Shown in pieces: positions 9,299-31,283 of a DNA stretch of 64,000 nt. The position numbers were made by a program, and so were the translations under genes. The notes under the pieces were generated by a model. The model worked only from the letters and a program-made list of their open reading frames with translations, was not told the origin of the DNA and did not search any database. Origin of the DNA: Vibrio sp. HB236076. Its GTDB lineage: Bacteria; Pseudomonadota; Gammaproteobacteria; Enterobacterales; Vibrionaceae. Numbering within the stretch: position 1 is the stretch's first letter; the number at the start of each line of letters is the position of its first letter. Location of the stretch: assembly GCF_040957575.1 (NCBI RefSeq), contig NZ_CP162601.1:2666001-2730000 (forward strand). The letters run 5' to 3'.

Positions 9299-9338
9299 GG
9301 TATCCCTTAAATTTCTCACTACATTATTTAAATCCTAA

Positions 9339-9350
9339 AATAATACAAAT
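9339..9350. promoter_or_regulatory. weak copy of the proposed GntR operator upstream of PL17
   Basis: AATAATACAAAT, about 40 bases upstream of the PL17 start. It keeps the TA-N-TACAA half of the palindrome TTGTA-N-TACAA found upstream of the symporter and the SDR, and the same 12-mer recurs at 16404-16415 upstream of a PL7 gene. Suggestive only. Confidence 0.35.
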
Positions 9351-9532
9351 AGACCCTCTTCAGCAACTCCAATGATCCAAATGATGATCACAATCACAAC
9401 CGAACACAGAACCAGGCTCGCCACGCCTTATTCACAGAGAATAGTGAGCAAGATCAAAGAAGCCAATCCCGCACTTCACTCTCGCTGACTTATCCCTCTT
9501 GAACCTTGATACCAGTCACGATTTAAAACATA

Positions 9533-9543
9533 TTGTATGACAA
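9533..9543. promoter_or_regulatory. proposed GntR operator upstream of kdgF
   Basis: TTGTATGACAA differs from the TTGTA-N-TACAA consensus at one position. It lies about 57 bases upstream of the kdgF start, so it could control the kdgF-kdgK-eda operon. Confidence 0.5.
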
Positions 9544-9599
9544 TAATAAAAAAGTGTTTTATGGTTACCACATCGCTAATATGAAAAGGAAGCTGAACA

Positions 9600-9935
9600 A
9601 TGGTTGCATTTTTTAAATCTGACGAACACCCGTGGGAAGAAGTCGGTCCGGGTATCAAGCGAAAAATCGTCGGTTATACCGATGACTTGATGCTGGTTCA
9701 CCTTTGTTTTGCTAAAGGTGCCATTGGCGAACCCCATTCTCATGAGATCCACGATCAGATCGGTTATGTCGTGAGTGGCAGTTTTGAAGCCGAAGTCGAT
9801 GGCGAAAAACAAGTGTTAAAAGCGGGTGATGCCTATATCGCGGCCAAACACCTGGTGCACGGTGCCGTCTCATTAGAAGAGAACAGCATTTTGCTCGACG
9901 CTTTTTCACCGGCCCGTGAAGACTTTTTAAAGTAA
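9600..9935 (+). CDS. kdgF: KdgF-like cupin, uronate-linearising enzyme
   Basis: 111 residues forming one small cupin domain. KdgF proteins convert the cyclic unsaturated uronate released by pectin or alginate lyases into the linear ketone form (DEH/DKI). The metal-binding residues are visible as His46, His48 (EPHSHE), Gln53 and His87, and GYVVSGSFEAEVDGE plus GDAYIAAKHLVHG fill the cupin motifs. The ATG at 9600 follows AAGGAAG at good spacing. It is the first gene of a run continuing with kdgK and eda, with gaps of 145 and 87 bases, and a proposed GntR operator lies upstream. Assignment from length, metal ligands and context is strong. Confidence 0.92.
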   Translation: MVAFFKSDEHPWEEVGPGIKRKIVGYTDDLMLVHLCFAKGAIGEPHSHEIHDQIGYVVSGSFEAEVDGEKQVLKAGDAYIAAKHLVHGAVSLEENSILLDAFSPAREDFLK

Positions 9936-10080
9936 CCGTCACCGTTATAAAAGTCACCGTTATCACCATCGTGACTCGATAAAAAATAGACACAAAAAAC
10001 ATGCGTATTAGCAAAGCATGTAAGATTAAAGATGAAAACGCACAGCGTCATCATCACTTTTTGTTGTAAAGGAGCAGAAC

Positions 10081-11013
10081 ATGAGCCCATTTAAACTCGC
10101 GATCATTGGCGAATGCATGGTTGAGCTGCAACACACCGAACAAGGGTTGCGTCAATCCTTTGGTGGAGACAGCTTAAATACCGCCGTTTACTTTACCCGC
10201 CTCACTCGCGAACACCCGTTTACCACCGCTTATGTCACTGCTCTTGGCCAAGATAGATTTAGCCTAGATATGCTCACAGCGTGGCAAAGTGAGGGCATCG
10301 ATACTCGTTTGGTGCGTCGCTTTGACGATAAATCGCCTGGCCTGTACTACATTGATACCGATGACAGCGGTGAGCGCAGTTTTACATACTGGCGCAACGA
10401 TGCGGCGGCAAAATACCTATTTGACCCTGATCGGATTGGCGATCTCAGTGATCAACTTCTCGAATTCAATGCCTGGTATTTAAGTGGTATCAGTTTAGCC
10501 ATTTTAACCGATGTTGGTCGTCAGACCCTCTTTGAGCTGATGGCTCGATTTGTCGAGCAAGGCGGCAAAGTGTATTTTGATAACAACTACCGCCCTAAGT
10601 TATGGTCATCCCCAGAGCAAGCTCAGCAAGCCTACGCTCAGGTCTTGGCCCTGACCGACACCGCGCTGCTGACCTTTGACGATGAACAGTTGTTATACGG
10701 CGACCGCGAGGAACAACAATGCATTGCTCGCACCCAAGAATTTGGCGTGAGAGAAATCATCATTAAACGCGGTGGTGAGGCGGCCTTGGTCGTGCTCGAC
10801 CAGCAGATGGATTCCGTCGCCCCTGCCCCGGTTGAGAAAATTGTCGATACCACGGCAGCCGGTGACTCCTTTAGCGGAGGCTACCTCGCTCGGCGACTCA
10901 CCCAAGGCAGCGCCGTTGAATCGGCCCAATTTGGCCATCGCGTTGCAGGGCAAGTCATACAAACCAAAGGCGCGTTAATTCCGCCAGCTGCGATGCAATC
11001 GGTTGAGCTTTAG
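10081..11013 (+). CDS. kdgK: 2-keto-3-deoxygluconate kinase
   Basis: 310 residues, PfkB/ribokinase family. It phosphorylates KDG to KDPG with ATP in the cytoplasm. N-terminal sequence IIGECMVELQHTEQGLRQSF and GGDSLNTAVYFTRL is the sugar-binding start of KDG kinases; the C-terminal PfkB signature DTTAAGDSFSGGYLA carries the catalytic Asp (about 259). AAGGAG precedes the ATG. It sits between kdgF and eda, giving the consecutive steps DEH, KDG, KDPG, pyruvate once the SDR at 31330-32106 is included. Confidence 0.95.
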   Translation: MSPFKLAIIGECMVELQHTEQGLRQSFGGDSLNTAVYFTRLTREHPFTTAYVTALGQDRFSLDMLTAWQSEGIDTRLVRRFDDKSPGLYYIDTDDSGERSFTYWRNDAAAKYLFDPDRIGDLSDQLLEFNAWYLSGISLAILTDVGRQTLFELMARFVEQGGKVYFDNNYRPKLWSSPEQAQQAYAQVLALTDTALLTFDDEQLLYGDREEQQCIARTQEFGVREIIIKRGGEAALVVLDQQMDSVAPAPVEKIVDTTAAGDSFSGGYLARRLTQGSAVESAQFGHRVAGQVIQTKGALIPPAAMQSVEL

Positions 11014-11100
11014 TCGCCGTGATTCAGCTCATCGGCCAGTGTCGATGAACACACTTTTCTGGGCTTAGCCCTCAAACAGAAACTATTAAGAGAAAACATC

Positions 11101-11724
11101 ATGACTCAACTTGTCGACCAATTAGCGCAACTAAAAGTCATTCCCGTGATTGCCATTAATCAGGCCGAACACGCTCTGCCACTGGGTAAAGCATTAGTCG
11201 AGAATGGCCTGCCGTGTGCCGAAATTACGTTCCGCACCGATTGCGCCCAAGAGGCCATTGCCATTATGCGCGATGCGTACCCAGAAATGCTGATCGGCGC
11301 AGGCACCGTATTGACGATAGAACAAGTCGATCAAGCGGTAGCCGCCGGTGCGGATTTTATCGTTAGCCCTGGCTTTAATCCGGTCACTGTTCAGTACTGT
11401 CTCGATAAGGGCATTGCGATTGTTCCTGGTATCAACAACCCCAGCTTAGTCGAACAAGCGATGCAAATGGGGCTAAAAACGCTGAAGTTTTTCCCGGCTG
11501 AGCCTTCTGGCGGTGTCGGCATGCTCAAGTCGCTCGCGGCCGTTTACCCGGTGCAATTTATGCCAACCGGGGGGATCAACCCGAATAACATCGACCAATA
11601 TTTGAACATTTCTTCTGTAATTGCCTGTGGCGGTACGTGGATGGTTCCGAGCCAATTGATGGATGAGGGTCGTTGGCAAGAGTTAGGTGAGTTGGTTAAA
11701 GAAGCCGTCAATACCGTCGCTTAA
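11101..11724 (+). CDS. eda: KDPG/KHG aldolase
   Basis: 207 residues, class I aldolase of the Entner-Doudoroff type. It splits KDPG into pyruvate and glyceraldehyde-3-phosphate. The Schiff-base lysine is in LKFFPAEPSGG (about residue 128); ITFRTDCAQEA, IGAGTVLT and FMPTGGINPNN are the other family signatures. It is the last gene of the kdgF-kdgK-eda run. This may be one of several eda copies in the genome, here dedicated to alginate catabolism (inference). Confidence 0.95.
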   Translation: MTQLVDQLAQLKVIPVIAINQAEHALPLGKALVENGLPCAEITFRTDCAQEAIAIMRDAYPEMLIGAGTVLTIEQVDQAVAAGADFIVSPGFNPVTVQYCLDKGIAIVPGINNPSLVEQAMQMGLKTLKFFPAEPSGGVGMLKSLAAVYPVQFMPTGGINPNNIDQYLNISSVIACGGTWMVPSQLMDEGRWQELGELVKEAVNTVA

Positions 11725-11750
11725 TCGCTTTATTTATTGTTTTAAATAAT

Positions 11751-11788
11751 TGTTGTTTTGTTGTTTTGTTGTTTTGTTGTTTTGTTGT
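11751..11788. repeat. tandem octamer repeat TGTTGTTT
   Basis: Four exact copies of TGTTGTTT followed by a partial fifth (TGTTGTCA). It lies 27 bases after the eda stop, outside any gene. Confidence 0.9.
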
Positions 11789-12010
11789 CACGTTTGCCTT
11801 TATACGGTCAAAGGCCTTTTCGGCACAGTAAGCTATTTACTCCTTATGGTTGCTCCTTGCGCTGTGCCTTTTTTCTTTGCTTTTTTATTCCATCGCTTTT
11901 TCTCTTTATTCATCGTCCATCGATGATAACTCACTATTATCGCCTCCTACTTGATTCGTTCACCACCGATAAGTCTCTCTTTTGTCTTGCGGCAAGACCT
12001 CGCACACCGA

Positions 12011-12045
12011 TAAAAAAAGACAGCCAACGGGCTGCCTTTTACTAG
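12011..12045. terminator. bidirectional terminator between eda and PL7
   Basis: An A-run, then GACAGCC, a short loop and GGCTGCC, then TTTT. CAGCC/GGCTG pair perfectly. Read on the minus strand the hairpin is followed by seven T, so it serves the PL7 gene best and eda as well. Confidence 0.8.
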
Positions 12046-12058
12046 CGAGATGCGCTGA

Positions 12059-12805
12059 TCAGTCAATCGCTTGCTGGTAGTATTTGAGTGACTCGAATTG
12101 CACTCGTCCGGTGCCTGAGTCTTGATTGTAAACCCCCGCTTTAAAGTAGCTTTCCAACTCGCCCCAGTAACTGATGTCGAGTTTATTGATCTCAGAATGA
12201 GTCACGCTGTCTCTTTTTATTGTCAGCGCATTATTCTCAATACGAATTTCAAACTTAACGGCAGAGTCACGATATTCACCTAGGTCAATTTTGGCGTAGT
12301 TTTTACAGCTCTCACAGGCATCTTCTTTGATGATCGCCCAATAGTGGTCGCTGACATCGTCGTACTCACGCATCCACACAATCCGCACTAAGGGCAAATT
12401 GATGGCATTGCTGTTACTGGTCACGTCATGTACTTGCAAGAAAGTGATCTCGTCGACTTCACCAGTTAAAGGATCATCAACCAGCACATTGGCGATCATC
12501 TTGTTGAGGTATTGTGTGTCTGAAGTGTACCAGTTGTTGACTTGCCTTAACTCAGAGCGGGCGTGATCGCCCGTGACCTCAAAGGTCATCCACGCATTAC
12601 CAGTGTCAGGGACATAAAAGTATTGATTGTATTGCCCCTCAAAGTCGCCATTGGCAATATAAGTGGCGCTGTTTGGCGCCTGCAATTTCGATTCATCGAG
12701 CACGGACTGATAACGGGCAATATCGTAAGGGGCACTGTCGGCCAGTGCCAGCGAGCTGCAGATACTGATGGGGAGCGCTAAGGCGAGTGCGAATTGTGTC
12801 TTCAT
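12059..12805 (-). CDS. secreted alginate lyase, PL7 family
   Basis: 248 residues with a Sec signal peptide cut near ALA-DS (about 22). A single PL7 jelly-roll domain shows the three diagnostic strands: ARSELR (Arg83-Arg87), the catalytic QVH (Gln124-His126) and YFKAGVYNQ (Tyr220-Gln228). PL7 enzymes cleave alginate by beta-elimination; QVH variants are often associated with G-containing linkages less strictly than QIH (family knowledge, not proof). It acts outside the cytoplasm. It resembles the lipoprotein PL7 at 16436-17344 throughout, so the two are likely paralogues. Two Cys (about 164, 167) in ACESCKNY may form a disulfide. It is a single-gene unit. Confidence 0.93.
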   Translation of the reverse strand: MKTQFALALALPISICSSLALADSAPYDIARYQSVLDESKLQAPNSATYIANGDFEGQYNQYFYVPDTGNAWMTFEVTGDHARSELRQVNNWYTSDTQYLNKMIANVLVDDPLTGEVDEITFLQVHDVTSNSNAINLPLVRIVWMREYDDVSDHYWAIIKEDACESCKNYAKIDLGEYRDSAVKFEIRIENNALTIKRDSVTHSEINKLDISYWGELESYFKAGVYNQDSGTGRVQFESLKYYQQAID

Positions 12806-12961
12806 TAGATTTCCTTGTTGATTGGATTAAACGTCAAATAACATGGCTCACCAGACTACTCTGGCTTCATCATTGATCACTTAGGTGTCCGCCCAATCGA
12901 GAGCACGCTTTTACGGTGTAGATTGTGCTCTCTAGACTGACCCGTGATTCTTTATTGCGGT

Positions 12962-12998
12962 AAAAAAAAGCCGTAATAAAGAGAACTTATTACGGCTT
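12962..12998 (-). terminator. terminator of the symporter gene
   Basis: Twelve-base arms AAGCCGTAATAA (12968-12979) and TTATTACGGCTT (12987-12998). On the minus strand the hairpin is followed by a run of eight T. It lies just past the symporter stop at 13020. Confidence 0.92.
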
Positions 12999-13019
12999 AG
13001 TATCGAACAAATCGGTGAA

Positions 13020-14795
13020 TTACTTAGTGGCGACTTCGGCTTCTGCCTCCACTTTATCATCGACGGATTTGACCAGTAATAGACCAACCGCCAACACGAT
13101 AAAGCCACACAGAATAAAGACTAATCGTCCCCACATTGGGTTAGGCAGGGCAAACATGGCCATTACGCCTACGCCCGCCACGGCAATCAAACTGCCCAAC
13201 ATACGGCGCTGTTTGTTGTCGAGTTTTTTCTGTGCTGTCGAATCGGCCACTAACGGCGTCGCTAAGTTATCAAAGAATTGATCCACTTGAACTTGACGCT
13301 CATCAGACAGGGGTTTGTAGAACAGAGTACTCAAGACAAAGAAGCCTGCGGTAAACACCAAGTGACCAATCAAGCCAATCGCGACTTTCAAGTCAGACCA
13401 TTCACGACCGGTAAGCGGCTGTAAGTCAAACCAGTTTTGAACCATTTCAGCGGTTAACACCAGGCCAACGAAGTAAGACACGACGCCGCCAACAATCAGT
13501 GTTCCCCAACCCGCCCAGTCTGGGGTTTTCTTAATAAAGAAGCCACAGAACGCTGGAATTGTCATTGGGAAGCCAATTAAGGCACCGACGTACATCATGG
13601 TGTCAAACAGGCTCAATCCTTTGAGAGAGTTAATAAACAGCGCAACGAGAATGATCGCAATGCCAAAGAAGGTTGAAGTGAGCTTAGAAACAAACACCAG
13701 CTCTTTTTCTGACGCTTGTGGGCGTAAAATCGGCTCGTAGAAGTTTTTAACAAAGATACCCGAGTTGCGGTTAAGACCAGAGTCCATCGATGACATGGTG
13801 GCGGCAAACATCGCGGCAATCAAAAGACCAATCATCCCTGCTGGCATGTATTCTTCAACGAAGTAAAGGTAAGCAAAATCGCCCGCTTTAGAGCCTGCAT
13901 CCGGATAAACTTGAGCCAGGTCAACACCTTGACCGGCAATATACCAAGAAGGCATGAACCAAATCAGTGGACCTAACGTCATCAACAAACACGCAAGCAA
14001 TGCGGCTTTTTTCGCATTTTTCGAATCTTTTGCCGCCAAATAGCGGTAAGAGTTCAGCATGTTGTTGGTAATACTAAATTGCTTGAAGAAGATAAAGAAT
14101 GCCCATAGGCCAAAAATGCTGAGGTAGTTGACGTTGTTACCTGAAATAAAGGAAGCGCCTTCTTGTACGGGGAAGTTCTCGACAATCTGTGTGACGCCAC
14201 CGCCTTGTACGATCGCCACGATAGCACACGTCACCGTGACCGCCATGATGATCACCATCTGCATAAAGTCAGACGCGATAACCGCCCAAGAGCCGCCGGT
14301 CACCGACATGATCAAAACCACCAGACCGGTAAGAATAATGGTGGTGGTCATATCGAAGCCAAAGATACCAGAAGCGATAATGGCCAAGCCATTAAGCCAG
14401 ATACCCGCTGAGATAACGCTGTTTGGCATACCAGACCAGGTAAACACTTGCTCGTTAAAACGACCAAAGCGCATTCTGATCGCTTGAATCGTTGTCACTA
14501 CGCGCAGCTGTCTAAACTTAGGCGCAAAGTACAAGTAGTTCATCAGGTAACCAAAGGCATTAGCGAGGAACAAGATCGCCACCGCAAAGCCATCGGCGTA
14601 GGCTTTACCGGCAGCACCTGTAAATGTCCAAGCACTGAATTGCGTCATGAATGCGGTCGCCCCTACCATCCACCACAACATGCTACCGCCCCCGCGGAAG
14701 TAGTCACTGGTGTTGCTGGTAAAGGTTCTAAACATCCAACCTATCGCGATGAGGAACAAGAAATAAATGCCGACTATTATTGTATTGAGATCCAT
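13020..14795 (-). CDS. SSS-family sodium/solute symporter, probable alginate monomer/oligomer importer
   Basis: About 591 residues from the ATG at 14795, preceded by AAAGGT; the frame opens earlier at GTG 14828 without support. Some 13-14 membrane helices of the sodium:solute symporter family are seen, with NSVISAGIWLNGLAIIASGI and AAMFAATMSSMDSGLNRNSG as typical core segments. In alginate-using Vibrio, homologous SSS transporters import DEH or short oligomers (established for the pathway). Here the position between PL7 genes and the exact operator 58 bases upstream of the start support that role. It is monocistronic with a strong terminator. Exact substrate is inferred. Confidence 0.9.
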   Translation of the reverse strand: MDLNTIIVGIYFLFLIAIGWMFRTFTSNTSDYFRGGGSMLWWMVGATAFMTQFSAWTFTGAAGKAYADGFAVAILFLANAFGYLMNYLYFAPKFRQLRVVTTIQAIRMRFGRFNEQVFTWSGMPNSVISAGIWLNGLAIIASGIFGFDMTTTIILTGLVVLIMSVTGGSWAVIASDFMQMVIIMAVTVTCAIVAIVQGGGVTQIVENFPVQEGASFISGNNVNYLSIFGLWAFFIFFKQFSITNNMLNSYRYLAAKDSKNAKKAALLACLLMTLGPLIWFMPSWYIAGQGVDLAQVYPDAGSKAGDFAYLYFVEEYMPAGMIGLLIAAMFAATMSSMDSGLNRNSGIFVKNFYEPILRPQASEKELVFVSKLTSTFFGIAIILVALFINSLKGLSLFDTMMYVGALIGFPMTIPAFCGFFIKKTPDWAGWGTLIVGGVVSYFVGLVLTAEMVQNWFDLQPLTGREWSDLKVAIGLIGHLVFTAGFFVLSTLFYKPLSDERQVQVDQFFDNLATPLVADSTAQKKLDNKQRRMLGSLIAVAGVGVMAMFALPNPMWGRLVFILCGFIVLAVGLLLVKSVDDKVEAEAEVATK

Positions 14796-14852
14796 TTTTC
14801 GACCTTTAGGGTGAGGTGTGTGTGTCACTATAATAAGTCACCCAATATCTAT

Positions 14853-14863
14853 TTGTAGTACAA
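14853..14863. promoter_or_regulatory. proposed GntR operator upstream of the symporter (exact palindrome)
   Basis: TTGTAGTACAA is a perfect palindrome around one central base, 58 bases upstream of the symporter ATG. The same 11-mer (as its complement TTGTACTACAA) occurs upstream of the SDR at 31273-31283, and both copies have ATAT/AATT-rich flanks followed by ATTTCG. The form fits the FadR-type GntR consensus T-N-GT-N3-AC-N-A. Confidence 0.7.
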
Positions 14864-15124
14864 TATAATCATTTCGTGATGCAGTAGACGTTTCCATCAT
14901 TCTGATCGACAAAACTCTGATCTTGGTCACTGTATCAAGGGAAAATAACAGAAAAGGCTCAGATTTATCGTCAATAGAAGACGGTTTTAGCCCAGATGAG
15001 TCGGGATAAAAAAGCGAGAATGTCAGTGAACGAACGGCTAAAAAACCCTTTAATCAAGGTATAAATAGGCATAATTGTATGATTAATAGGGCAGTTAACC
15101 TGCCCCATTGATCCCGATCAAACT
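14864..15124. other. intergenic region upstream of the symporter operator
   Basis: A stretch between the symporter promoter and the end of the PL7 gene. It holds the hairpin at 15089-15105; apart from that and the operator just left of it no structure or gene is visible. Confidence 0.5.
15089..15105 (-). terminator. hairpin after PL7 lipoprotein gene
   Basis: GGGCAG, loop TTAAC, CTGCCC. On the minus strand it comes 20 bases after the PL7 stop and is followed only by TATTAAT, so it is a weak intrinsic terminator. Confidence 0.5.
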
Positions 15125-16153
15125 TTAAAAACGCGCTAAATCGAGTTGGTAAAAGCTCACCTGAGTGTAGTCCCCTGAGTCGGCGCCTCGGTATTGACAC
15201 GCCGAAGAGCTGGCTTTGGTATTACATTGGTTGTAAGCACCGGCTTTAAAGTACATCCAATCATCGCCATAGCCTTGGTCTATGTCATGGCCTTGATAAT
15301 GGCCATGCGCTAAATCGACCTGAAAGGTTTTGCTCTCTTCGTTCGCCTCACCGGGGTGTTTGATAAAGGTCAAGGTCATCACATCGCCTTTTACCTCAAC
15401 GTCGTAGTGGAATTTTTCGCCTAAAGCAATGCCATCAAGGGGGGACTCATCGCCGGCTTTGAGGTTGTATTTACCCCATACATTGGAACGTATGTCTTTG
15501 CGAAGTTTCGACTTTTGCTGTGCTTTTGGCGGGTTGAGTTCATAGCCCCAATACAGGGAGCCCAAATCGTGGCCTGGCAATTTTCGATAAGCGATTTTTA
15601 ACGGTTCATTTTTGGCTGCGTGGATTTGGCCAATCACCACAGAGTAAGCGCCGGTTTTATTTGCATCCCCGCTTTGACTGACCCAGTCGACACTCACCGT
15701 TGCCGATAATTGTCCGCCAATTGAACCGTATTTTTCGGCATCAGGGTGAGAAGCGAGTACAAAGTTATTGGCCGGCTCGTCGTATTTTTCCGCGTACATC
15801 GCTCGCAGCTCACTGCGGGCGTTTTTGCTGTTCGGCGTTGTGGGCGCATCATTTGGCGCTTTAAACACCATGGCTTGACGCGCGTTATCATAATAAAACC
15901 ACTCTTGACTAATAAAGCCTTGAGATAATTGATGCTTGTTGATCTCTCGTGCTTTTCCTTTGCGCTTACCTGAGGTTTCATGCTCTGGCAACGTCAACTT
16001 CCAATCGCCCAGAGCAAAATACTGACTCGGCGCGGCCTGATTGAGCGCGGCCGGCTCGCTTGTGTGCACCGGCGCGGCCTGACCTAAAGAGGGGCTTTGA
16101 CTGCACGCACTTAAAACCAGTGTCGCGCTGATAAGTGAAAGGCGAAATAACAT
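15125..16153 (-). CDS. alginate lyase lipoprotein, PL7 family
   Basis: 342 residues from the ATG at 16153, which follows GAGGAACCC; a longer frame to 16228 lacks a ribosome binding site and would hide the signal peptide. The lipobox LSAC places the lipid Cys at 17, so the enzyme is probably membrane-anchored. The PL7 domain begins YFALGDWKLTLPEHETSGKR and shows ARSELR (113-117), QIH (176-178) and YFKAGAYNQ (301-309), all catalytic or substrate-contact strands. QIH forms often prefer G-rich blocks (family tendency). It is divergent from the PL7 lipoprotein at 16436, and a degenerate GntR operator (16233-16243) lies upstream. Confidence 0.93.
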   Translation of the reverse strand: MLFRLSLISATLVLSACSQSPSLGQAAPVHTSEPAALNQAAPSQYFALGDWKLTLPEHETSGKRKGKAREINKHQLSQGFISQEWFYYDNARQAMVFKAPNDAPTTPNSKNARSELRAMYAEKYDEPANNFVLASHPDAEKYGSIGGQLSATVSVDWVSQSGDANKTGAYSVVIGQIHAAKNEPLKIAYRKLPGHDLGSLYWGYELNPPKAQQKSKLRKDIRSNVWGKYNLKAGDESPLDGIALGEKFHYDVEVKGDVMTLTFIKHPGEANEESKTFQVDLAHGHYQGHDIDQGYGDDWMYFKAGAYNQCNTKASSSACQYRGADSGDYTQVSFYQLDLARF

Positions 16154-16232
16154 GTAGGGTTCCTCATTTATTGGTATTTTTCGCTTACTGGCCATCACAA
16201 ATCGAGCGAATAACACAGCAAACACCAAGCAT

Positions 16233-16243
16233 TAATACTACAA
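16233..16243. promoter_or_regulatory. degenerate GntR operator in the divergent PL7 promoter region
   Basis: The complement reads TTGTAGTATTA, sharing eight of the ten defined positions with TTGTA-N-TACAA. It lies 80 bases upstream of the leftward PL7 start. Confidence 0.4.
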
Positions 16244-16364
16244 AATACCCCTAACTCACCGTGAAGCATTTCAAAAAATCCGATGAACTACGACGAAAAA
16301 TCAATAAAACGCCCAATAATGTGCAATAGGACGACAAAAAACGCTTATCTACGTCGTCGTTATC

Positions 16365-16378
16365 GTGAAAGACATCAC
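16365..16378. promoter_or_regulatory. CRP-like half-sites between divergent PL7 genes
   Basis: GTGA, six bases, TCAC: the core of a cAMP-CRP site, about 58 bases before the rightward PL7 start. Catabolite control would be expected for polysaccharide lyases; outer bases of the consensus are imperfect (CGTGA / TCACG). Confidence 0.45.
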
Positions 16379-16403
16379 GACACGCTATTTATTATAAATA
16401 TAC

Positions 16404-16415
16404 AATAATACAAAT
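16404..16415. promoter_or_regulatory. weak copy of the proposed GntR operator upstream of PL7
   Basis: AATAATACAAAT, identical to 9339-9350, about 20 bases upstream of the PL7 start. It keeps one half-site of TTGTA-N-TACAA. Confidence 0.35.
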
Positions 16416-16435
16416 TAATCATTTGGTACCTCTCG

Positions 16436-17344
16436 ATGCGACACCCAGCCACTACCCCACAACACGGCAAAAACACGCGCAATTCCCGTTCCCTGTTGCC
16501 GATGTTGAGCCTGTTATTATTACTCGGTTGCCAATCGGGATCGGAGAGCGCCGATAGCGTGAGTGATGACGCCGCTTCGACGGTCACCAGTGCATCCAGT
16601 AGCACCGATGCCAGTGCGCCTTACAGCTATGTCGCTTGGCAAGATCTGCTCGAACACGCAAATTTACAACAATCGGATCCCGACGGCGATGAGGGCAACA
16701 AATCCGATCTGGTTAAAGCCGGACAGTTTGCTGATTTTTATAATGATTACTTTTATTATGATGGTACTGAAGAGGTTCTGTCGTTTGCCATGTCCGGTTA
16801 TAAGATGCGCTCTGAGCTTCGTATGATCGATAACTTTGATACCACCGGTAAGCCCTACGTACTCACGGCCAGTTTTAAACCGATTGGCATCGAAGCGGCC
16901 ATGTCAAGCACCAGTAGTGCCAATGATGCGGTCACCTTTTTACAAGTACACAACAAAGGCGAAGATGATTCTGGGACAGGCTATATCCCCCATCCCCTGG
17001 TGAGAATTGTCTACGAGGCCAATCGCAATAATCTTTACGGGCATTACTGGGCGATCATCAAAAACAACAGCCTCGATTGCAGTATAGATAACCCACCCGA
17101 TGCGTGCGATAACTCGTATGACCGCTATGATCTTGGCGCCGCAAACCTCGATAGCTTCACCGCCATGACACTCACGGTTGGCGACAGCTTGTTGTTGATC
17201 CATGTTGATGGGCAGCTTAAAGTCAGTTATCCAATTGATTACTGGAGTCATTTACTGAGCTATTTTAAAGCGGGCGTCTATAATCAATTTGAAAATGGCA
17301 GCGCTCTCGTGCAATTTGAAACCTTGCTCTACCAAACCCCTTAA
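16436..17344 (+). CDS. alginate lyase lipoprotein, PL7 family (second)
   Basis: 302 residues. A long charged N-region is followed by a hydrophobic stretch and lipobox LLGC (Cys32), then a Ser/Asp-rich linker (about 33-62) that would hold the enzyme off the membrane. The PL7 domain shows MRSELR (124-129), QVH (170-172) and YFKAGVYNQ near the C-terminus. It resembles the secreted PL7 at 12059-12805 in most of the domain, including HYWAIIK and a Cys pair. The ATG at 16436 has a poor ribosome binding site, and the next in-frame Met (23) has none either. It is divergently transcribed from another PL7, with a CRP-like site and weak operator copies between them. Confidence 0.92.
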   Translation: MRHPATTPQHGKNTRNSRSLLPMLSLLLLLGCQSGSESADSVSDDAASTVTSASSSTDASAPYSYVAWQDLLEHANLQQSDPDGDEGNKSDLVKAGQFADFYNDYFYYDGTEEVLSFAMSGYKMRSELRMIDNFDTTGKPYVLTASFKPIGIEAAMSSTSSANDAVTFLQVHNKGEDDSGTGYIPHPLVRIVYEANRNNLYGHYWAIIKNNSLDCSIDNPPDACDNSYDRYDLGAANLDSFTAMTLTVGDSLLLIHVDGQLKVSYPIDYWSHLLSYFKAGVYNQFENGSALVQFETLLYQTP

Positions 17345-17430
17345 CCAAATAGCGCGCAACATGCCCACAGCCGTCGCGGTCACAGGGCGAAAAGCGTCAA
17401 GGCCTGGCTAGAACGGCAAGGCGTCTGCGA

Positions 17431-18219
17431 TTAAAACAAGGCTTCACGACGAGGCGGCTTTTCGCTGACGGCAAAGACCTCGCCAAACGTCACCGGTGAT
17501 TGGCGGTCGCGACGGTGCATTTGCGCTAACCACAATTCTGCGGTGGCGAGGGCATCACTTAAAGCGTGGTGCTCTGGGTAAGGGGGTAAGCCATGGCGCT
17601 GCCTCACTTCTGATAGTGTTACCCCTTGTTGAAAATCGCCTTTGGCTTGCAAGCTATTTTTTTCCATTGTCAGGGTGTCTAACCAGTAAAACGGCGGTAA
17701 GGGCGTTTGGTAATAACGGGCAAAAAACTGCGCCATAAAAGCCACTTCGACACATTTGCCATGCACCACCAACACCTTGCCTTGCGCAGCGTCAAAAAGG
17801 CGCTGAAAAGCGGTTTCAATGGCGATGCCCTGCTGTAAGTGTTTGGGCATGATCTGGTGAATCGCCACCGCGTCTTTATCCATCGCACTGGGCGCATCGG
17901 GGGTAATGTAATAGTGTTGCGCGCTGTTGAGCTTGATGCTTTGCTGCTCGATACTCAGCCATCCTATCGATAATATCGTGTCTTTTTCGGCATCTAAGCC
18001 GCTGCATTCAATATCAAAAACTAAGTAATCTAGCGCATGGCATGGGGTGTGACTGTCAATGCTCGGCTCGCAGAGCATCGCATTGACAGATTCGGGCCAA
18101 GGGTAGGCTTGGCGGGCTTGTTCACTGCGACTTGCAGCGACACGCTCAGCCCATTGTTTGCGCTTGCGTTGATAACGGCTGAGCGGTGATGAGCTCCACC
18201 ATCGATGCCAATTGATCAT
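17431..18219 (-). CDS. DEDDh 3'-5' exonuclease (DnaQ/PolC epsilon-like)
   Basis: 262 residues. The RNase T/DnaQ exonuclease fold is recognised from Exo I (YLVFDIECSGLDAEKD, with D and E), the Exo II region (LVVHGKCVEVAFM) and Exo III (HHALSDALATAELW, with the catalytic H and D). It probably removes nucleotides from 3' ends of DNA or RNA. It overlaps the upstream DUF294 gene by one base (TGATG), so the two are translationally coupled. This exonuclease-DUF294 pair is common in marine gammaproteobacteria, usually next to acetate permease genes, which are absent here. Confidence 0.88.
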   Translation of the reverse strand: MINWHRWWSSSPLSRYQRKRKQWAERVAASRSEQARQAYPWPESVNAMLCEPSIDSHTPCHALDYLVFDIECSGLDAEKDTILSIGWLSIEQQSIKLNSAQHYYITPDAPSAMDKDAVAIHQIMPKHLQQGIAIETAFQRLFDAAQGKVLVVHGKCVEVAFMAQFFARYYQTPLPPFYWLDTLTMEKNSLQAKGDFQQGVTLSEVRQRHGLPPYPEHHALSDALATAELWLAQMHRRDRQSPVTFGEVFAVSEKPPRREALF

Positions 18220-20081: not shown

Positions 20082-20428
20082 CTCGACTCACTCCGGCGCC
20101 ACCAACATCAACATGCCAGATAACACACTTAATTCATTGTCAAAAAATCAATTAAATCGTTATTTTAGTTTGCCTTAAACCTCACCAAAAGCCTATGATG
20201 ATAACCGGTTTCGCCAAGGTACATCACACTTTCTAGGTTGGTCTATACTCATATTGATTATCAATGAAATGTGACGTACTCGGCCAAACCAAAAGACCAA
20301 TGGAATACACCACAAAGACACCACCTATCTGTCGCGGGTCACTCAAGTGCATTAATTTCACCACATAAAGATAACGTTTGCGATAAAATGACCGATAACA
20401 AGTGATGGCAGTCTGACAGGGCAATGCG
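20082..20428. other. intergenic region before the cellulose operon
   Basis: About 345 AT-rich bases between the divergent DUF294 and cellulose genes. It must hold both promoters; no unambiguous operator or RNA gene is visible. Confidence 0.4.
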
Positions 20429-25405: not shown

Positions 25406-26499
25406 CGCCTTACCCAAGACTCAAAAACGCGCTGCTCGCCGCCTGTGTGGCGGTCGGGCTAAGTCATTGCACGCCACAGGAGCCAAGCCCGTTTCAAGAT
25501 GATTGGCAGCACTACAAAGCGCGCTTCTTGCAGCACGGGCGCGTGGTGGATACGGCCAATCAAGACATCTCTCACAGTGAGGGGCAAGGCTATGGCATGT
25601 TGTTTGCCGTCCACGCTCAAGACAAAAGCGCTTTTCGACAACTGTGGCAGTGGACACAAGCGGTACTCGCTCGCGACGATCACTTGTACAGTTGGAAATA
25701 TCAGCCGTGTCCCAGTCGTGACAAAGCCTGCGTCAGTGACAGTAACAATGCGTCTGATGGCGACATTCTCATTGCGTGGGCCTTGCTACTCGCCGCCGAG
25801 CAATGGCAAGAGCCAGATTGGCAGCAAGCCGCCCTGCAAACGTTAAACGCGGTAAAATCCAAATTGATCACGCGACGTTTTGGCCATTTAATCCTGCTGC
25901 CTGCCGAATACGGCTTTGAACCGGATAAAGCACGAGTGCAGTTGAATTTGTCTTATTGGGTGTTTCCGGCCCTAGAGCAGTTTAGCCAGCAAACTCAAGA
26001 TCCCATTTGGCATCAGTTGTACCTATCGGGAGAGCAATTGATCGAGTTGGCGCAATTTGGCCAATGGCACCTGCCGCCAGATTGGGTCATGCTCACCGAG
26101 CAAGGATTAACGCTGGAGGGGGCTTTATCGCCAGATTACGCTTATAACGCTTGTCGCATTCCTTTGTATATAGCTATGTCTGACCATGGCGATCGCGCTT
26201 TACTGACGCCTTTTCTTAATTTTTGGCAGCAAGACAAGGTGCCGGGTACCGTCAATCTGAGCGACAATTCTCACGCTGATTACACCATGAACAGTGGCAT
26301 GCAATCGATCGCCACCAGTGTCCAGCATCGGTATCAACCGCATCACAATCACCGAGACAGTCAGGCGCAAGCATCCAAATCGAACGCGGAAAATTCAGGC
26401 GTGCCTCTGCCGAGCATAGACAGCGCCAGCGATTATTACTCTGCGAGTTTAATCTTGCTGTCTCAACTTTCATTACTCAAGGAGAACCCTAAATCATGA
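25393..26499 (+). CDS. bcsZ: periplasmic endoglucanase, GH8
   Basis: 368 residues from the ATG at 25393. The frame is open upstream to 25189, but that part lies inside bcsB in another frame. It starts with a hydrophobic segment ending VGLSHC, a possible lipobox-like Cys. GH8 motifs: SHSEGQGYGM with the general acid Glu (about 60), and SPDYAYNACRIPLY with the conserved Asp (about 247). In cellulose operons this enzyme trims or edits the glucan in the periplasm and is needed for normal output. The stop overlaps the bcsC start (ATGA). Confidence 0.93.
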   Translation: MATITPYPRLKNALLAACVAVGLSHCTPQEPSPFQDDWQHYKARFLQHGRVVDTANQDISHSEGQGYGMLFAVHAQDKSAFRQLWQWTQAVLARDDHLYSWKYQPCPSRDKACVSDSNNASDGDILIAWALLLAAEQWQEPDWQQAALQTLNAVKSKLITRRFGHLILLPAEYGFEPDKARVQLNLSYWVFPALEQFSQQTQDPIWHQLYLSGEQLIELAQFGQWHLPPDWVMLTEQGLTLEGALSPDYAYNACRIPLYIAMSDHGDRALLTPFLNFWQQDKVPGTVNLSDNSHADYTMNSGMQSIATSVQHRYQPHHNHRDSQAQASKSNAENSGVPLPSIDSASDYYSASLILLSQLSLLKENPKS

Positions 26500-28808
26500 C
26501 GCGGCGCTCGACTTCCCCACTCTGGCTTAGTGCGTGTGTCTCCTTTGCACTATCGGCGAATACCGTGAACGTCGATTACCAGAAACAAGCCCTGGATCAG
26601 CAAAGCGCTGAGCTCAACGCCCAAGAGCTCTTCGGCGCTAAGGTCGACACCTTTGCTCTTTGGCATTACATTCGCCAGCAGCGCACCGACTTGGCGATGC
26701 AAGAGTTACAGCGTTTAAAACAAACTTACCCCACTTGGCGCCCTGAAAAGGCGATTTTAGACGCGATTGCCGCGCAACTTCGTATTGCCTTGCGCTTGCA
26801 GTCACAGGCGCAAGAAAGTGAGCAACAACCCAAGGCCAGTGCTCGGCCCACCGTCGTTGTTGACCCTGTAGAACAGCTGTTTTCTCGCTTGAGTCGGCAA
26901 AGCAAACCACAATGGCAAAAGCTGCCTAACAAAACGGTGTCGACGGCGTCTAAGGCCGCTTTTGCGCAAAATAACCCTGAACGCTTACGCCTCGTCGGCT
27001 GGATTTTGCTCAGTCGCTCTCAATATCGCCAAGCGTTAGAACATTTTCAACATGCTTTGGCGATCACCGGCCCCAATACCAGTGCCGAAGATGGGCGAGA
27101 CACCGCCTTAAAAGGCATGATCAACGAGGCCATAAAGCGCAACGACCAAGCCGCGTTAACCCAACTGATCGCGCAAGCCCCGACCCTCGCCAACGCGGTG
27201 ATCAATGCCAGCGCCTGGCAACGCTTTGACGCACAACAATTCGACACCGCGCTCACTCTATTTACCACGTCAGGTCATCAATATGGCCAAGTGTTAACCC
27301 TTGAGAAAATGGGCCAAGAGCCACAAGCGTTTGAACTGGCCTGCCAACACGTCACCCAAGCAAACTTACTCCATTACTGTATTGAGGGCTATGCCAAACG
27401 CCAGTTAGCCCACTTTCAGCAGCAAGAGTATCACCAGAGTGAAATCATGGCCGAGGCCATCCAAAGCCTCGGCAAGTTAAACGATCAGCAGATGGAGATT
27501 TACGCTTGGACACAAGCCAAACTTAACCATCGCGGTCAACGGCAGTGGGCCTTTGCTCAACTGATCTCCCGTCAGCCGAACAATCACACATTTGCCAAGG
27601 CCTTGGTCGACAGCTTTGATCCTCAAGACCCCCTCTTGGATCAATTTTCTCACTCTTACCCTTCTGTGCAACACGCGCTAACCGAAAAGCAAAAGCAAAC
27701 CGCTTGGTCTCGCAAACAATTTAATCGTTTTTACGCCTTGGACAGTACCTCACAGCAAGCAGATCAAACCACGTTATCAGCGGGGTTTGATTGGCAAAAT
27801 AACGACACCGGCAATAACTTAACCGGCTTGCAGAGCCAGCAATACTCACTGGGTTACACCCGCCGAAATGACGGTGCTCAATATGGGCTAAAAACCGCTT
27901 ACTTGACATACCAAGGTGGCAATTTCGATACTCAAGCCAGCCAATTACAGGCTTTTTACCGCAGACAAGGCGGCGATTGGAACGCCCTTGCTCGCTTGAC
28001 GTATCAACAACCTCAAGACAATTTGCCGTCGCGGTGGTTTGCCATGCTGTCAGGGGTTTGGTTTGACGATCCTTGGAGTTACGCTGCGAGCCTGTATCGC
28101 GACCCGATAGAAGAAACCATACTCAGCACCACAGGAGTGAACGACGAGGGTGAACGCTGGGGCAGTGTCAGTGCCAATGGGGCTCGCGCCTTATTCAATT
28201 ACCAATGGGACCCTACCTGGTCATCGAATGCGCAGCTTGATTGGGCTTGGATTGAAGGCACTGACGTCGGCAGTAATCAAAAATTCAGTATAAGCACTGG
28301 GTTAAATAAAGATATCGCCAGTCAATTGTCTTATCCGTTTGACTACCTTCGCCTCGGGCCTTACTTGTCTTGGATGCATTATCAAGAGAACCAAAACGAT
28401 TATTCACTGGGCAATGGCGGTTACTTTAGCCCACAACAATTTATCAGTGCTGGCGGACAACTGCAGTGGCTCAGCGAAGAAAATCGCACTTGGCAATGGG
28501 CAGGACGAATCGCGCTTGGCTATAACCAAGTCGATAATGGCGATGTCATCAGCGATCGATATGGCGCGTCAACCTCGGTCAGCCAAAGTAACGACAGTGG
28601 CTTGGGCGCGGCTCTGCGCTTAGAAGGACAGTGGTTGTTAGACTCGCGCTGGGAGTTAGCCGGTTTATTGGAATATCAGGCCAGTGCCTCTTACGATCAA
28701 GCATTGTTAGGCATTGAACTACGCTGGAATCAAGCCGAGCGGACTGGCGTGACCAGTGATGGCTTGATCTCGTCTTCTCCATATCGATTACACTACGCTT
28801 GGTATTGA
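26496..28808 (+). CDS. bcsC: short BcsC-like outer-membrane cellulose export protein
   Basis: 770 residues, against roughly 1,150 for the enterobacterial BcsC. A signal peptide (about 1-21) leads to alpha-helical TPR-like repeats (about 45-400, for example RLVGWILLSRSQYRQALEH), then a C-terminal beta-barrel region rich in aromatic strands (about 420-770) ending SSPYRLHYAWY, the aromatic end of outer-membrane barrels. The role is peptidoglycan-spanning scaffold and outer-membrane pore for the glucan. The shorter length reflects fewer TPRs rather than damage: the frame is intact and in register with bcsZ. A strong terminator follows. Confidence 0.85.
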   Translation: MTRRSTSPLWLSACVSFALSANTVNVDYQKQALDQQSAELNAQELFGAKVDTFALWHYIRQQRTDLAMQELQRLKQTYPTWRPEKAILDAIAAQLRIALRLQSQAQESEQQPKASARPTVVVDPVEQLFSRLSRQSKPQWQKLPNKTVSTASKAAFAQNNPERLRLVGWILLSRSQYRQALEHFQHALAITGPNTSAEDGRDTALKGMINEAIKRNDQAALTQLIAQAPTLANAVINASAWQRFDAQQFDTALTLFTTSGHQYGQVLTLEKMGQEPQAFELACQHVTQANLLHYCIEGYAKRQLAHFQQQEYHQSEIMAEAIQSLGKLNDQQMEIYAWTQAKLNHRGQRQWAFAQLISRQPNNHTFAKALVDSFDPQDPLLDQFSHSYPSVQHALTEKQKQTAWSRKQFNRFYALDSTSQQADQTTLSAGFDWQNNDTGNNLTGLQSQQYSLGYTRRNDGAQYGLKTAYLTYQGGNFDTQASQLQAFYRRQGGDWNALARLTYQQPQDNLPSRWFAMLSGVWFDDPWSYAASLYRDPIEETILSTTGVNDEGERWGSVSANGARALFNYQWDPTWSSNAQLDWAWIEGTDVGSNQKFSISTGLNKDIASQLSYPFDYLRLGPYLSWMHYQENQNDYSLGNGGYFSPQQFISAGGQLQWLSEENRTWQWAGRIALGYNQVDNGDVISDRYGASTSVSQSNDSGLGAALRLEGQWLLDSRWELAGLLEYQASASYDQALLGIELRWNQAERTGVTSDGLISSSPYRLHYAWY

Positions 28809-28823
28809 TCAGCACATGGTAAT

Positions 28824-28860
28824 AAAAAAGAGGCAGCCCACTGAAGTGCTGCCCTTTTTT
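28824..28860. terminator. bidirectional terminator after bcsC
   Basis: AAAAAAGAGGCAGC, loop, GCTGCCCTTTTTT: both sides end in a T-run. It serves bcsC (+) and the Bcr/CflA gene (-). Confidence 0.92.
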
Positions 28861-28884
28861 ATTCGGCGCTTTGACCATGGTCTA

Positions 28885-30093
28885 TCAAGGTTCAACCTGA
28901 GGCAGCTTATCAACCACAAAAGGCCGATGTTTGACTCGCCACCACAGCACACTGCCCACCAAGCCAATCGCCAGCTGAATGTAGGCAAGGTTTTGCAACA
29001 TGGTCTCTGGATTGAGTGACACCAGCGACATGCCAAGCGCGCCGCACATCATGGTCGAAAATTGGATCACCGCCACCGCAGAGCCTGTGTCTTTGCTTTG
29101 TTGTTCTAACATTAAGTTCGTCCCCGGCACCCGCAAAGAGATAACCGACATGGTCGCCGTCGCCGCCAATAATGCAAATACGTAGGGACTGCTGGCCCCT
29201 AAGCAGGTCATCGCCACGCCCGATAAAGTCAAACCAAGAAAACTGCAGCTTATCATCGTGGGTATCGAGATATAACGCGTCACTTTTAAATACACCCGCG
29301 GGGCAAACGACGCACAAAAGGCGTTAAACGCGAAAAAGTAACTAAATACCTGCTCGGTAAGGCCAAAGCCATTGATGTAGACATAAGAGCCCGCCGCCAA
29401 AAAGGCCATCATCGCCAGCGCAGGTAAAGAAAAAATCAACAGCAACTGCAAAAACGCGCGATTTTGTGTCACTACCCACAATCGCCCCCAAGCGCGAAAT
29501 ACAGAGCCGGTGTACTTTTCAGTCAGGGTTTCTCGATAGGCCAAAGCAAACGGCACACACAAGGCCCCAAAAAGCGCCAATGCAATGAACATCCAGTGCC
29601 AGTTGCCGATCGTCAATAAAAAGGCCCCTAATACCGGGGCGATCATCGGCGCGATGATCACTAAGGACATGATGGTGGCCATGATTTTTTCTCGCTCGCG
29701 TCCCTGATACATGTCTTTGACAATCGCGGTCGCGACAACGGTGACGGCACTGCCGCCAAACGCTTGCAAGACCCGTGAACCAATCAACATTTCCACGGAG
29801 TAACTGGCCGCACAAGCCAAGCTGGCCAGGATATAAAGCCCGATGCCGACTAACATGATCGGCTTGCGGCCAAACTTTTCACTCAATGGCCCCCAAAACA
29901 ACAAGCCCGTGGCATAAACGCCAAAGTAACCACTCAGGGTCAAGTTGATCAAGGTTTGTGATGTGTTTAGCGTTTCGACCATGTGGGGCAAAGCCGGCAA
30001 ATACAAATCGGTCGTAAGGGGGGGAAAGGCGCTGATGATCACCAAAAATAACAGGGTCCACTTGCGACCAAGGCGCGGTTGTAATTGTTGCAA
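28885..30093 (-). CDS. Bcr/CflA-type MFS multidrug exporter
   Basis: About 402 residues from a TTG at 30093, which follows GAGGA at seven bases and gives the family-like start MQQLQPRLGRKWTLLFLVI. A longer frame to ATG 30156 would read through a perfect 12-bp terminator hairpin (30113-30141), so it is unlikely. Twelve membrane helices; TTDLYLPALPHMVE and GPLSEKFGRKPIMLVGIGLY are the Bcr/CflA and MFS signatures. The family exports drugs or small solutes with H+. It lies downstream of the GntR gene, beyond a terminator, so it may not belong to the alginate regulon; its substrate is unknown. Confidence 0.88.
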   Translation of the reverse strand: MQQLQPRLGRKWTLLFLVIISAFPPLTTDLYLPALPHMVETLNTSQTLINLTLSGYFGVYATGLLFWGPLSEKFGRKPIMLVGIGLYILASLACAASYSVEMLIGSRVLQAFGGSAVTVVATAIVKDMYQGREREKIMATIMSLVIIAPMIAPVLGAFLLTIGNWHWMFIALALFGALCVPFALAYRETLTEKYTGSVFRAWGRLWVVTQNRAFLQLLLIFSLPALAMMAFLAAGSYVYINGFGLTEQVFSYFFAFNAFCASFAPRVYLKVTRYISIPTMISCSFLGLTLSGVAMTCLGASSPYVFALLAATATMSVISLRVPGTNLMLEQQSKDTGSAVAVIQFSTMMCGALGMSLVSLNPETMLQNLAYIQLAIGLVGSVLWWRVKHRPFVVDKLPQVEP

Positions 30094-30112
30094 GACATTT
30101 TCCTCAGACCAT

Positions 30113-30141
30113 AAAAAAGAGAACGCGAAGTTCTCTTTTTT
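30113..30141 (-). terminator. terminator of the GntR gene (perfect 12-bp hairpin)
   Basis: AAAAAAGAGAAC, loop GCGAA, GTTCTCTTTTTT. It lies 21 bases past the GntR stop on the minus strand and precedes the exporter start. Symmetric A/T tracts make it work either way. Confidence 0.92.
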
Positions 30142-30162
30142 GGGGTCACAAATCATGAATGG

Positions 30163-30930
30163 TTAAACGGCTTTTTTAATACCGCTTTGTGCTAATAAGG
30201 CTTGGTTTTGTTCTTCAAGCGCTTGTAAGCGATGGTTGTTTTCATTGAGATGAGTCACAGACGCCAATTTGGCTTTTTCGCCATTGCCCGCCATGATCGC
30301 TTCGTAAATCGTGCGATGTTCATCAATGCACGTACCACCATCTTTCGAAGAGTGAATAAAGAAGTTGACGAACATGGTCTTGAGAATGTTGCCAAACGGC
30401 AAATAAAAATCGTTGCCCGTCGAGCGGAAAATCAGATCGTGAAAGCGCATATCAACCTGAGTCCACTTTTGCTGATCAAACGGTTGTGCCTCAGCCACGA
30501 CACACATTTCTTGAAATGCTTCCGACAGTTGAATGCGTTGCTCCGCGGTGGCGTGTTTCGCCGCCAGCAGACAGGCTTCTGGCTCGATGGCCAAACGCAA
30601 GCCGAGGAATTGACGGTAAAAAACGCTTTTATCGGTAATGCCATCCATCCACTCAAGCAGTTGTGAATCGAGGAAATTCCAATAAGCTCTTTCGACCACT
30701 TTGGTACCAACTTTAGGTCTTGATTCTAGCATGCCCTTCGATGTCAGTAGCTTAACCGCTTCTCGAAGCGCCGTGCGACTTACGCCAAATTGCTCACACA
30801 AGAACATCTCACCAGGTAAGATAGAACCTTGCTCAATTTTTCCCGATAAAATTCCTCGAGCAATCTCTCGTGCCACTTGAACGTGCAAGCTGCGCTTTGA
30901 GCCAGAGATTGAAGAAAAAGAATTCGCCAT
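30163..30930 (-). CDS. FadR-subfamily GntR transcription regulator, probable alginate regulator
   Basis: 255 residues. An N-terminal winged helix (about 12-80; ILPGEMFLCEQFGVSRTALREA, then KGMLESRPKVGTKV) is followed by an all-helical FCD ligand domain (about 95-235; FHDLIFRSTGNDF and HRTIYEAIMAG carry metal/ligand residues). Such regulators usually bind uronate or keto-deoxy sugar acids and release the operator (family knowledge). It is divergent from the DEH-reductase gene with an exact palindrome between them, and its own promoter holds another palindrome (30951-30972). Best reading: repressor of the alginate genes responding to KDG or DEH (inference). Confidence 0.88.
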   Translation of the reverse strand: MANSFSSISGSKRSLHVQVAREIARGILSGKIEQGSILPGEMFLCEQFGVSRTALREAVKLLTSKGMLESRPKVGTKVVERAYWNFLDSQLLEWMDGITDKSVFYRQFLGLRLAIEPEACLLAAKHATAEQRIQLSEAFQEMCVVAEAQPFDQQKWTQVDMRFHDLIFRSTGNDFYLPFGNILKTMFVNFFIHSSKDGGTCIDEHRTIYEAIMAGNGEKAKLASVTHLNENNHRLQALEEQNQALLAQSGIKKAV

Positions 30931-30950
30931 GGTGCGTACAACCTAAAATA

Positions 30951-30972
30951 ATTAGTAGTATTTAATACTAAT
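30951..30972. promoter_or_regulatory. palindrome in the GntR gene promoter
   Basis: ATTAGTA, eight bases, TACTAAT, with an inner AGTATTTAATACT. It sits 21 bases upstream of the regulator start and is GTA/TAC-based like the alginate operator, so an autoregulation site is plausible. Confidence 0.45.
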
Positions 30973-31272
30973 ATAACATAAAAAATAATCTCAGCCGTGA
31001 TTTCTGCCATCTATTTGCGTTTTTTTACTCAACTTAACAGTATTTGTTGTATCGAGGCCAGTCGTGTCACTCTGGATGAAAGGTCGCCAATTCTCTATCA
31101 AATTGGCAACATAGAGTGATATTTCAATCATAACTTTCGACTTATTTCACAAAACCGCCTGTTGATAATAACGTGAACAACAATAAGGACTTGATCGATG
31201 TCGAACGGTATTTTGCGTCATCAATCACAAATAAAATCATAAACATAGCCAAAAATAGCCTTTAATGTAATA
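30973..31272. other. intergenic region between GntR and SDR genes
   Basis: About 300 AT-rich bases. One weak inverted repeat is visible (GCCAATT 31086-31092 / AATTGGC 31101-31107). No gene seen; the operator lies at its right end. Confidence 0.45.
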
Positions 31273-31283
31273 TTGTACTACAA
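31273..31283. promoter_or_regulatory. proposed GntR operator upstream of the SDR (exact palindrome)
   Basis: TTGTACTACAA, 47 bases upstream of the SDR start, is identical on the opposite strand to the site upstream of the symporter. The regulator gene is the divergent neighbour. Confidence 0.7.

Follow-up and report, generated by a model that had tools for sequence, protein, structure and literature searches.

Introduction

Alginate is one of the main carbon sources offered by brown algae, and Vibrio one of its main consumers. The regulation of alginate use in Vibrio has been called little understood (accessible text of PMC13390454). The closest described systems involve regulators of the GntR family or predicted alginate regulators. 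AusR of Zobellia galactanivorans is described in the accessible text as a GntR-family repressor of alginate genes that is released by breakdown products (PMC7874173, PMC8286568). In Vibrio sp. C42, GntR-1 and GntR-2 belong to an alginate locus with kdgF, kdgK, eda, 4-deoxy-L-erythro-5-hexoseulose uronate (DEH) reductases, a solute:sodium symporter and polysaccharide lyases of families 7 and 17 (PL7, PL17), as reported in the accessible text of PMC13390454. For a single Shewanella genome, Rodionov and others (2010; PMC2996990) predicted an alginate regulator, AlgR, and a transporter, AlgT, together with DNA sites. Operators of the FadR subfamily of GntR proteins are palindromic, their GT and AC being separated by 3 bases as a rule (accessible text of PMC4494728), and the FadR-type regulator DgoR is reported to bind two closely spaced inverted repeats across its promoter (accessible text of PMC12288454).

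Here we analyse a window of 64,000 nucleotides from Vibrio sp. HB236076 (contig NZ_CP162601.1, positions 2,666,001 to 2,730,000), in which alginate genes are split by unrelated operons. A preliminary description of this window proposed that an 11-base palindrome, TTGTA-N-TACAA, joins the split genes to a single FadR-type GntR gene. The analysis makes it very likely that the palindrome serves as operator for a GntR repressor of the FadR subfamily that controls alginate use; an effector would release this repressor, and CRP would be the activator at the symporter and kdgF promoters.

Results

Exact copies of TTGTANTACAA had been claimed at 14853-14863 and 31273-31283, and both are present. One (TTGTACTACAA, minus strand) lies 58-68 bp ahead of the likely ATG (14795) of a sodium:solute symporter gene; the other (TTGTACTACAA, plus strand) lies 47-57 bp ahead of the ATG of a short-chain dehydrogenase/reductase (SDR) gene predicted to encode a DEH reductase. 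A one-mismatch copy, TTGTATGACAA, was found as described at 9533-9543 (plus strand), inside the divergent kdgF/PL17 promoter and 57-67 bp ahead of kdgF. The whole genome (3.88 Mb, two contigs) holds 7 exact sites versus 2 for the reversed pattern; with 2 of these in 64 kb, the window has about 17 times the genome rate. Sites with up to two mismatches are no commoner in the window than in shuffles (22 observed versus 29.35 expected), so weak copies are uninformative by themselves.

We scored sites with a matrix built from 87 distinct sites, all from other genomes, the HB236076 genome being excluded from training. The matrix is symmetric with a free centre base, and its GT-A-N-T-AC form fits the FadR-type consensus, as the preliminary description had held, and has the 3-base spacing, both of which would suit binding by the GntR encoded here. 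The three top scores in the window all fall at alginate promoters: 31273 (26.1 bits), 14853 (24.2 bits) and 9533 (19.1 bits), compared with best scores in 30 simulated windows that average 8.8 and reach at most 17.2. Weaker copies had also been proposed before PL17 and PL7 genes. The site at 16233-16243 (minus strand, 2 mismatches), before the PL7 gene PL7_15125, ranks fourth at 12.6 bits and is inside the range of the simulated windows; the half-site at 9338-9348 before PL17 (8.2 bits) and the copy at 16403 before PL7_16436 (5.5 bits) are at chance level. PL17 may instead be served by the common site at 9533. The palindrome said to mark the promoter of gntR itself, TAGTATTTAATACTA at 30956-30970, has the form GT-N7-AC, with 7 bases rather than 3 between GT and AC. 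Matrix scores there do not exceed 4.2, and 0 of 22 gntR promoters of relatives carry the 11-mer to within one mismatch; on the spacing and this lack of conservation we rejected it as a copy of the same operator. The strong sites are thus confirmed, the weaker ones only partly, and the one claimed for the promoter of gntR finds no support.

Two of the seven exact sites in the genome are inside open reading frames (ORFs; 119381 and 986184) and five are intergenic. Four of these five precede alginate-linked genes: the symporter, the DEH reductase, a PL7 lyase with a carbohydrate-binding domain (site at 1197022, 103 bp upstream) and the DctP gene of a tripartite ATP-independent periplasmic (TRAP) transporter (site at 698795, between DctP and a divergent gene for a methyl-accepting chemotaxis protein, MCP). 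Concentration of the motif at alginate genes, anticipated earlier, is therefore borne out by the exact-site scan; the two blocks of the window share the exact site, and the regulon is wider than the two blocks first envisaged, including PL7 lyase and TRAP transporter genes elsewhere. One-mismatch sites precede another PL7 gene (707752) and a 600-residue lipoprotein of unknown kind (1196673), and a two-mismatch site scoring 15.5 bits precedes a KdgM porin gene (1194574). Across 0.25 Mb of stretches outside the window, picked around motif hits, scores of at least 12 bits include those at DctP (21.8), two PL7 genes (20.9 and 18.2) and the porin (15.5); five places without an alginate link also score 12.7 to 17.3. 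The score of 17.3, at 1862723, belongs to a site before a 139-residue protein without evident alginate link. Three TRAP-type DctP genes are close together at about 693-699 kb, with 57-58% identity to the operator-bearing one. The MCP gene was considered as a regulon member and is not supported, as none of 12 other DctP orthologs has it within 1.5 kb upstream.

Conservation of the sites was assessed in stretches from 19 relatives, a site being counted when within 300 bp of a gene. Every symporter of at least 80% identity carries an exact site (20/20), and in a second search with one symporter locus per genome, HB236076 included, an exact site occupies the same place in 28 of 30. Among distant symporters (about 49-57% identity, hand-picked from the match list) only 1 of 19 promoter stretches has one: 0 of 8 in genomes lacking the GntR ortholog, GntR1, and 1 of 11 in genomes having it. 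At the divergent kdgF/PL17 promoter, exact sites are found at 7 of 11 PL17a and 7 of 12 kdgF genes, rising to 11/11 and 11/12 when one mismatch is allowed, and 6 of 10 PL7 genes with a binding domain have a site at that tolerance. DctP orthologs carry an exact site in 8 of 12 cases and a one-mismatch site in 2 more, versus no site with up to one mismatch at 17 more distant DctP genes. The operon-internal genes kdgK (0/12), eda (0/12) and PL17b (0/11) are without a site. Other ORFs of at least 150 residues have an exact site in 3 of 328 cases, as against 20 of 20 symporters; with up to one mismatch the figure is 20 of 328, and some of these ORFs have their promoter region in common with an alginate gene. 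A degenerate half-site spotted by eye in 14 of 22 gntR1 upstream stretches, versus 10 of 413 others, was set aside because the pattern was derived from the same data and HB236076 lacks it.

The sites also travel with the regulator. GntR1 is present in 34 of 80 genomes of the genus, HB236076 included. The symporter (at least 80% identity) is found in 33 of these 34, one copy being split in two, and in none of the 46 others; DctP (at least 67%) is found in 13 of 34 and 0 of 46. Genomes with GntR1 (33, HB236076 left out) average 9.3 exact sites versus 3.3 in the 46 without (p = 8e-11), and the reversed control pattern averages 11.2 versus 9.4 (p = 0.15); these p-values overstate independence because the genomes are related. 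The best 80 of 245 relatives' loci around the regulator contain 94 exact sites, compared with 0 to 8 for 19 other palindromes of the same letters and 11 for the reversed pattern. Fifty-two of these loci are from Vibrio, some being the same records as the genus genomes, so that the two sets overlap. The remaining 28, from Aliivibrio, Photobacterium, Shewanella, Marinomonas, Agarivorans, Motilimonas, Psychromonas, Buttiauxella and Mangrovibacter, hold 27 exact sites versus 2 for the reversed pattern, with at least one in 17 loci. Exact sites directly before gntR occur in Marinomonas (loci L210 and L214), and one-mismatch sites in Shewanella.

In relatives the operator has a defined place within its promoters. 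The sequence TCAC, which forms the right-hand half of a CRP-like site, stands exactly 16 bp upstream of the operator in 40 of 48 distinct symporter promoters and 19 bp upstream in 24 of 29 kdgF promoters. One of the two elements, TCAC or the -10, is lacking in 5 of the 48 symporter promoters and 3 of the 29 kdgF promoters; in the others, TCAC and the -10 are 44-45 bp apart in 42 of 43 symporter promoters and in 23 of 26 kdgF promoters. These figures may carry some bias, since whichever sequence matched best with up to 2 mismatches in a 12-bp range counted as the -10, ties being resolved towards 17. The operator therefore shifts by 3 bp between the groups while the TCAC to -10 distance mostly stays constant; it covers the -35 region in both, mostly 17-18 or 15 bp before the -10 depending on the group. 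Matches to the full CRP consensus mostly have 2-3 mismatches of 10, fewer than in shuffles. HB236076 itself has kept TCAC upstream of both operators, at 16 bp for the symporter and 17 bp for kdgF, with a poor left CRP half, and the SDR promoter is without the TCAC-operator-(-10) layout.

Most simply, CRP would activate such a promoter from about -61, and a GntR dimer on the operator would block it because, at the symporter and kdgF promoters of relatives, the operator is in the -35 region downstream of the CRP-like half-site; this layout suggests repression by GntR. Without alginate, then, a dimer would occupy the 11-mer at the symporter, kdgF/PL17, DEH reductase, PL7 and TRAP transporter promoters. 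GntR would leave the DNA once the metal site of its FCD domain is occupied by a product of alginate degradation, for which C6 keto acids such as 2-keto-3-deoxygluconate (KDG) or DEH are the likeliest candidates.

The regulator belongs to the FadR subfamily, with an N-terminal GntR winged helix-turn-helix (HTH; PF00392, 1.8e-17) and an FCD domain (PF07729, 7.5e-22), both over cut-off. Its AlphaFold model has a mean predicted local distance difference test score of 81 and a helical C-terminal domain, and its best PDB match is E. coli DgoR (7c7e, E = 2.8e-23). Residues D160, H164 and H205 align with the DgoR metal ligands D146, H150 and H195 and are invariant across 16 aligned proteins, ten GntR1 and six of a paralog, GntR2 (47-59% identity). 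H227, a fourth candidate ligand, is kept in the ten GntR1 and is Leu in the six GntR2, so the two sensors may differ in effector. In three other genomes (G021, G035 and G052) a second kdgF-like gene (36-41% identity) adjoins GntR2, followed in G021 and G052 by a third GntR (34-37%).

The genes concerned are collected in Table 1. The neighbours of gntR are the DEH reductase gene, cellulose genes and a Bcr/CflA-type major facilitator superfamily (MFS) gene (28885-30156, minus strand) that begins 7 bases past the gntR stop on the same strand and is, on account of this gap and orientation, probably co-transcribed with it. The genome has 7 PL7 genes and one KdgM porin in total; near 1.19-1.20 Mb the porin gene clusters with a gene for a GarR-like reductase and two of the PL7 genes, so that alginate genes are spread beyond the two blocks originally delimited.

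Table 1. Alginate-related genes of the window, with the basis of each assignment (KDPG, 2-keto-3-deoxy-6-phosphogluconate).
Feature	Coordinates	Strand	Basis
PL17-type oligoalginate lyase (b)	4962..7124	-	Pfam; NCBIfam oligoalginate lyase, under its cut-off
PL17-type oligoalginate lyase (a)	7136..9319	-	Pfam; NCBIfam oligoalginate lyase, under its cut-off
kdgF-like cupin	9600..9935	+	Pfam Cupin_2; name from setting and from kdgF as named for Vibrio sp. C42
kdgK (KDG kinase)	10081..11013	+	NCBIfam KdgK over cut-off
eda (KDPG aldolase)	11101..11724	+	Pfam Aldolase
PL7 alginate lyase, downstream of symporter, same strand	12059..12805	-	Pfam Alginate_lyase2
Sodium:solute symporter	13020..14828 (longest ORF; likely start 14795)	-	Pfam SSF; orthologs start M(D/E)LNT
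PL7 alginate lyase (PL7_15125)	15125..16228	-	Pfam
PL7 alginate lyase (PL7_16436), weak match	16436..17344	+	PF08787 over cut-off
FadR-subfamily GntR, 255 residues, HTH and FCD, proposed repressor	30163..30930	-	Pfam GntR and FCD
SDR, predicted DEH reductase, A1-R' type	31330..32106	+	PDB 4tkl (E = 8.2e-117), 4w7i (E = 1.7e-116)

Discussion

The proposal that one operator word joins the split alginate genes to the FadR-type GntR is upheld by the matrix, by exact sites elsewhere in the genome, by conservation, by co-occurrence with the regulator and by the DgoR operator discussed below; on this reading the GntR encoded here would bind the word. Several observations pull the other way. An exact intergenic site (2511018) is just ahead of glnK, a GlnK/PII-like gene, and no site reaching 12 bits was found in the stretch around another PL7 gene, at 477 kb. 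With one mismatch allowed, the genome yields 50 13-mers versus 36 for the control, mostly inside ORFs; scans of this kind are swamped by chance matches. Symporter copies at 2 of 30 loci carry 2 mismatches, a good site is missing at 2 of 12 DctP orthologs, and the gntR1 promoters of relatives (0/22) are without one. No SDR ortholog in relatives has a site with up to one mismatch (0/4), so the strong SDR site looks lineage-specific. In a second group of symporter promoters 7 of 13 miss one element, and only 2 of the 6 others show the 45-bp distance. The CRP-like half-sites of HB236076 are weak: its closest full matches depart from the consensus at 2 or 3 of 10 positions and, for the symporter and SDR, stand at other distances. 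All compared promoters are moreover related sequences rather than independent ones.

Chance, in the form of short AT-rich palindromes that happen to be near alginate genes, would account for weak copies in the window being no commoner than in shuffles, but it hardly merits consideration in view of 94 sites where permuted palindromes reach at most 8, exact sites at 28 of 30 symporter loci and the three top matrix scores of the window at alginate promoters. It is scarcely more credible that the 11-mer is no operator and belongs to the promoter itself as a conserved -35 element. In relatives it does cover the -35 region at the symporter and at kdgF; its distance to the -10, however, varies by group (15 versus 17-18 bp), it is fully palindromic around a free centre, and it is rarer both where the regulator is absent from the genome and upstream of distant symporters (1/19).

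More serious are readings in which the operator is genuine and the role of this GntR differs. The operator might be mainly that of GntR2, or common to the two paralogs, with the GntR of the window binding only as one of the pair. GntR2 is found in all 33 other GntR1 genomes, often adjoining GntR1, and the DNA-binding stretch SRTALRE is identical in both across the alignment of 16. We nevertheless consider this unlikely: HB236076 is without GntR2, having only four FCD proteins, the other three of which are not near alginate genes within their fetched neighbourhoods, yet it has kept strong sites, and several of the 28 loci from other genera (for example L193 and L221) show just one GntR relative near the sites. 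That GntR binds the sites as an activator, or both activates and represses, is less probable still. Induction of gntR-1 and gntR-2 themselves by alginate in Vibrio sp. C42, as given in the accessible text of PMC13390454, would agree with activation, whereas in relatives the operator is flanked by the CRP-like half-site upstream and the -10 downstream, mostly 17-18 or 15 bp from the latter, which is a repressor position, and DgoR (PMC12288454) and AusR (PMC7874173, PMC8286568) are both described as repressors in the accessible text. Repression by a GntR bound at TTGTA-N-TACAA thus stays the preferred account.

A broader picture can be offered tentatively, as a possibility that we rate below the operator assignment itself and somewhat short of probable. 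A single code, extending from Vibrio to Marinomonas and into two enterobacterial genera, would tie lyases, porin, symporter, TRAP transporter and the monomer pathway together. Most Vibrio would read it with two paralogous sensors; the lineage of the window would have lost one and placed its DEH reductase under the other, and the TRAP transporter would be an unrecognised importer of an alginate product. An operator word readable in sequence makes the regulon predictable in any relative and flags the TRAP transporter as a candidate importer. It also provides a defined promoter (CRP-like site, operator and -10) for testing, and HB236076, which has one regulator where most Vibrio with this system have two, lends itself naturally to testing a single regulator.

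A literature search on alginate regulators, covering mostly papers free of subscription, returned no operator for a Vibrio regulator; one for a TRAP transporter of alginate gave no relevant title, and among titles returned for the literal 11-mers only that of the DgoR paper was relevant. The accessible text of that paper (PMC12288454) places TTGTAGTACAA, the same 11-mer as among the sites here, in the DgoR operator inverted repeat IR1. DgoR controls D-galactonate genes, whereas the sites reported here are at alginate genes; it is distant in sequence (E = 2.8e-23), with Met aligned to H227. In Vibrio sp. C42, which resembles our system in description rather than by sequence comparison, the alginate genes form one 39-kb locus plus a few scattered lyases (accessible text of PMC13390454), unlike their spread in HB236076; the main text of that paper gives no operator, and the terms EMSA (electrophoretic mobility shift assay), AlgR and repress are absent from it. 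AusR, from a host in the Bacteroidota, is likewise comparable to the window GntR by description, not by operator or sequence. The Shewanella AlgR may be the same regulator as the window GntR, a likeness again of description and not of family or motif. Since AusR, the GntR genes of Vibrio loci and the predicted Shewanella AlgR were all reported before, a system of this kind is already known; to it the present analysis adds the operator, its spread, the link to a TRAP transporter and the layout of the promoters.

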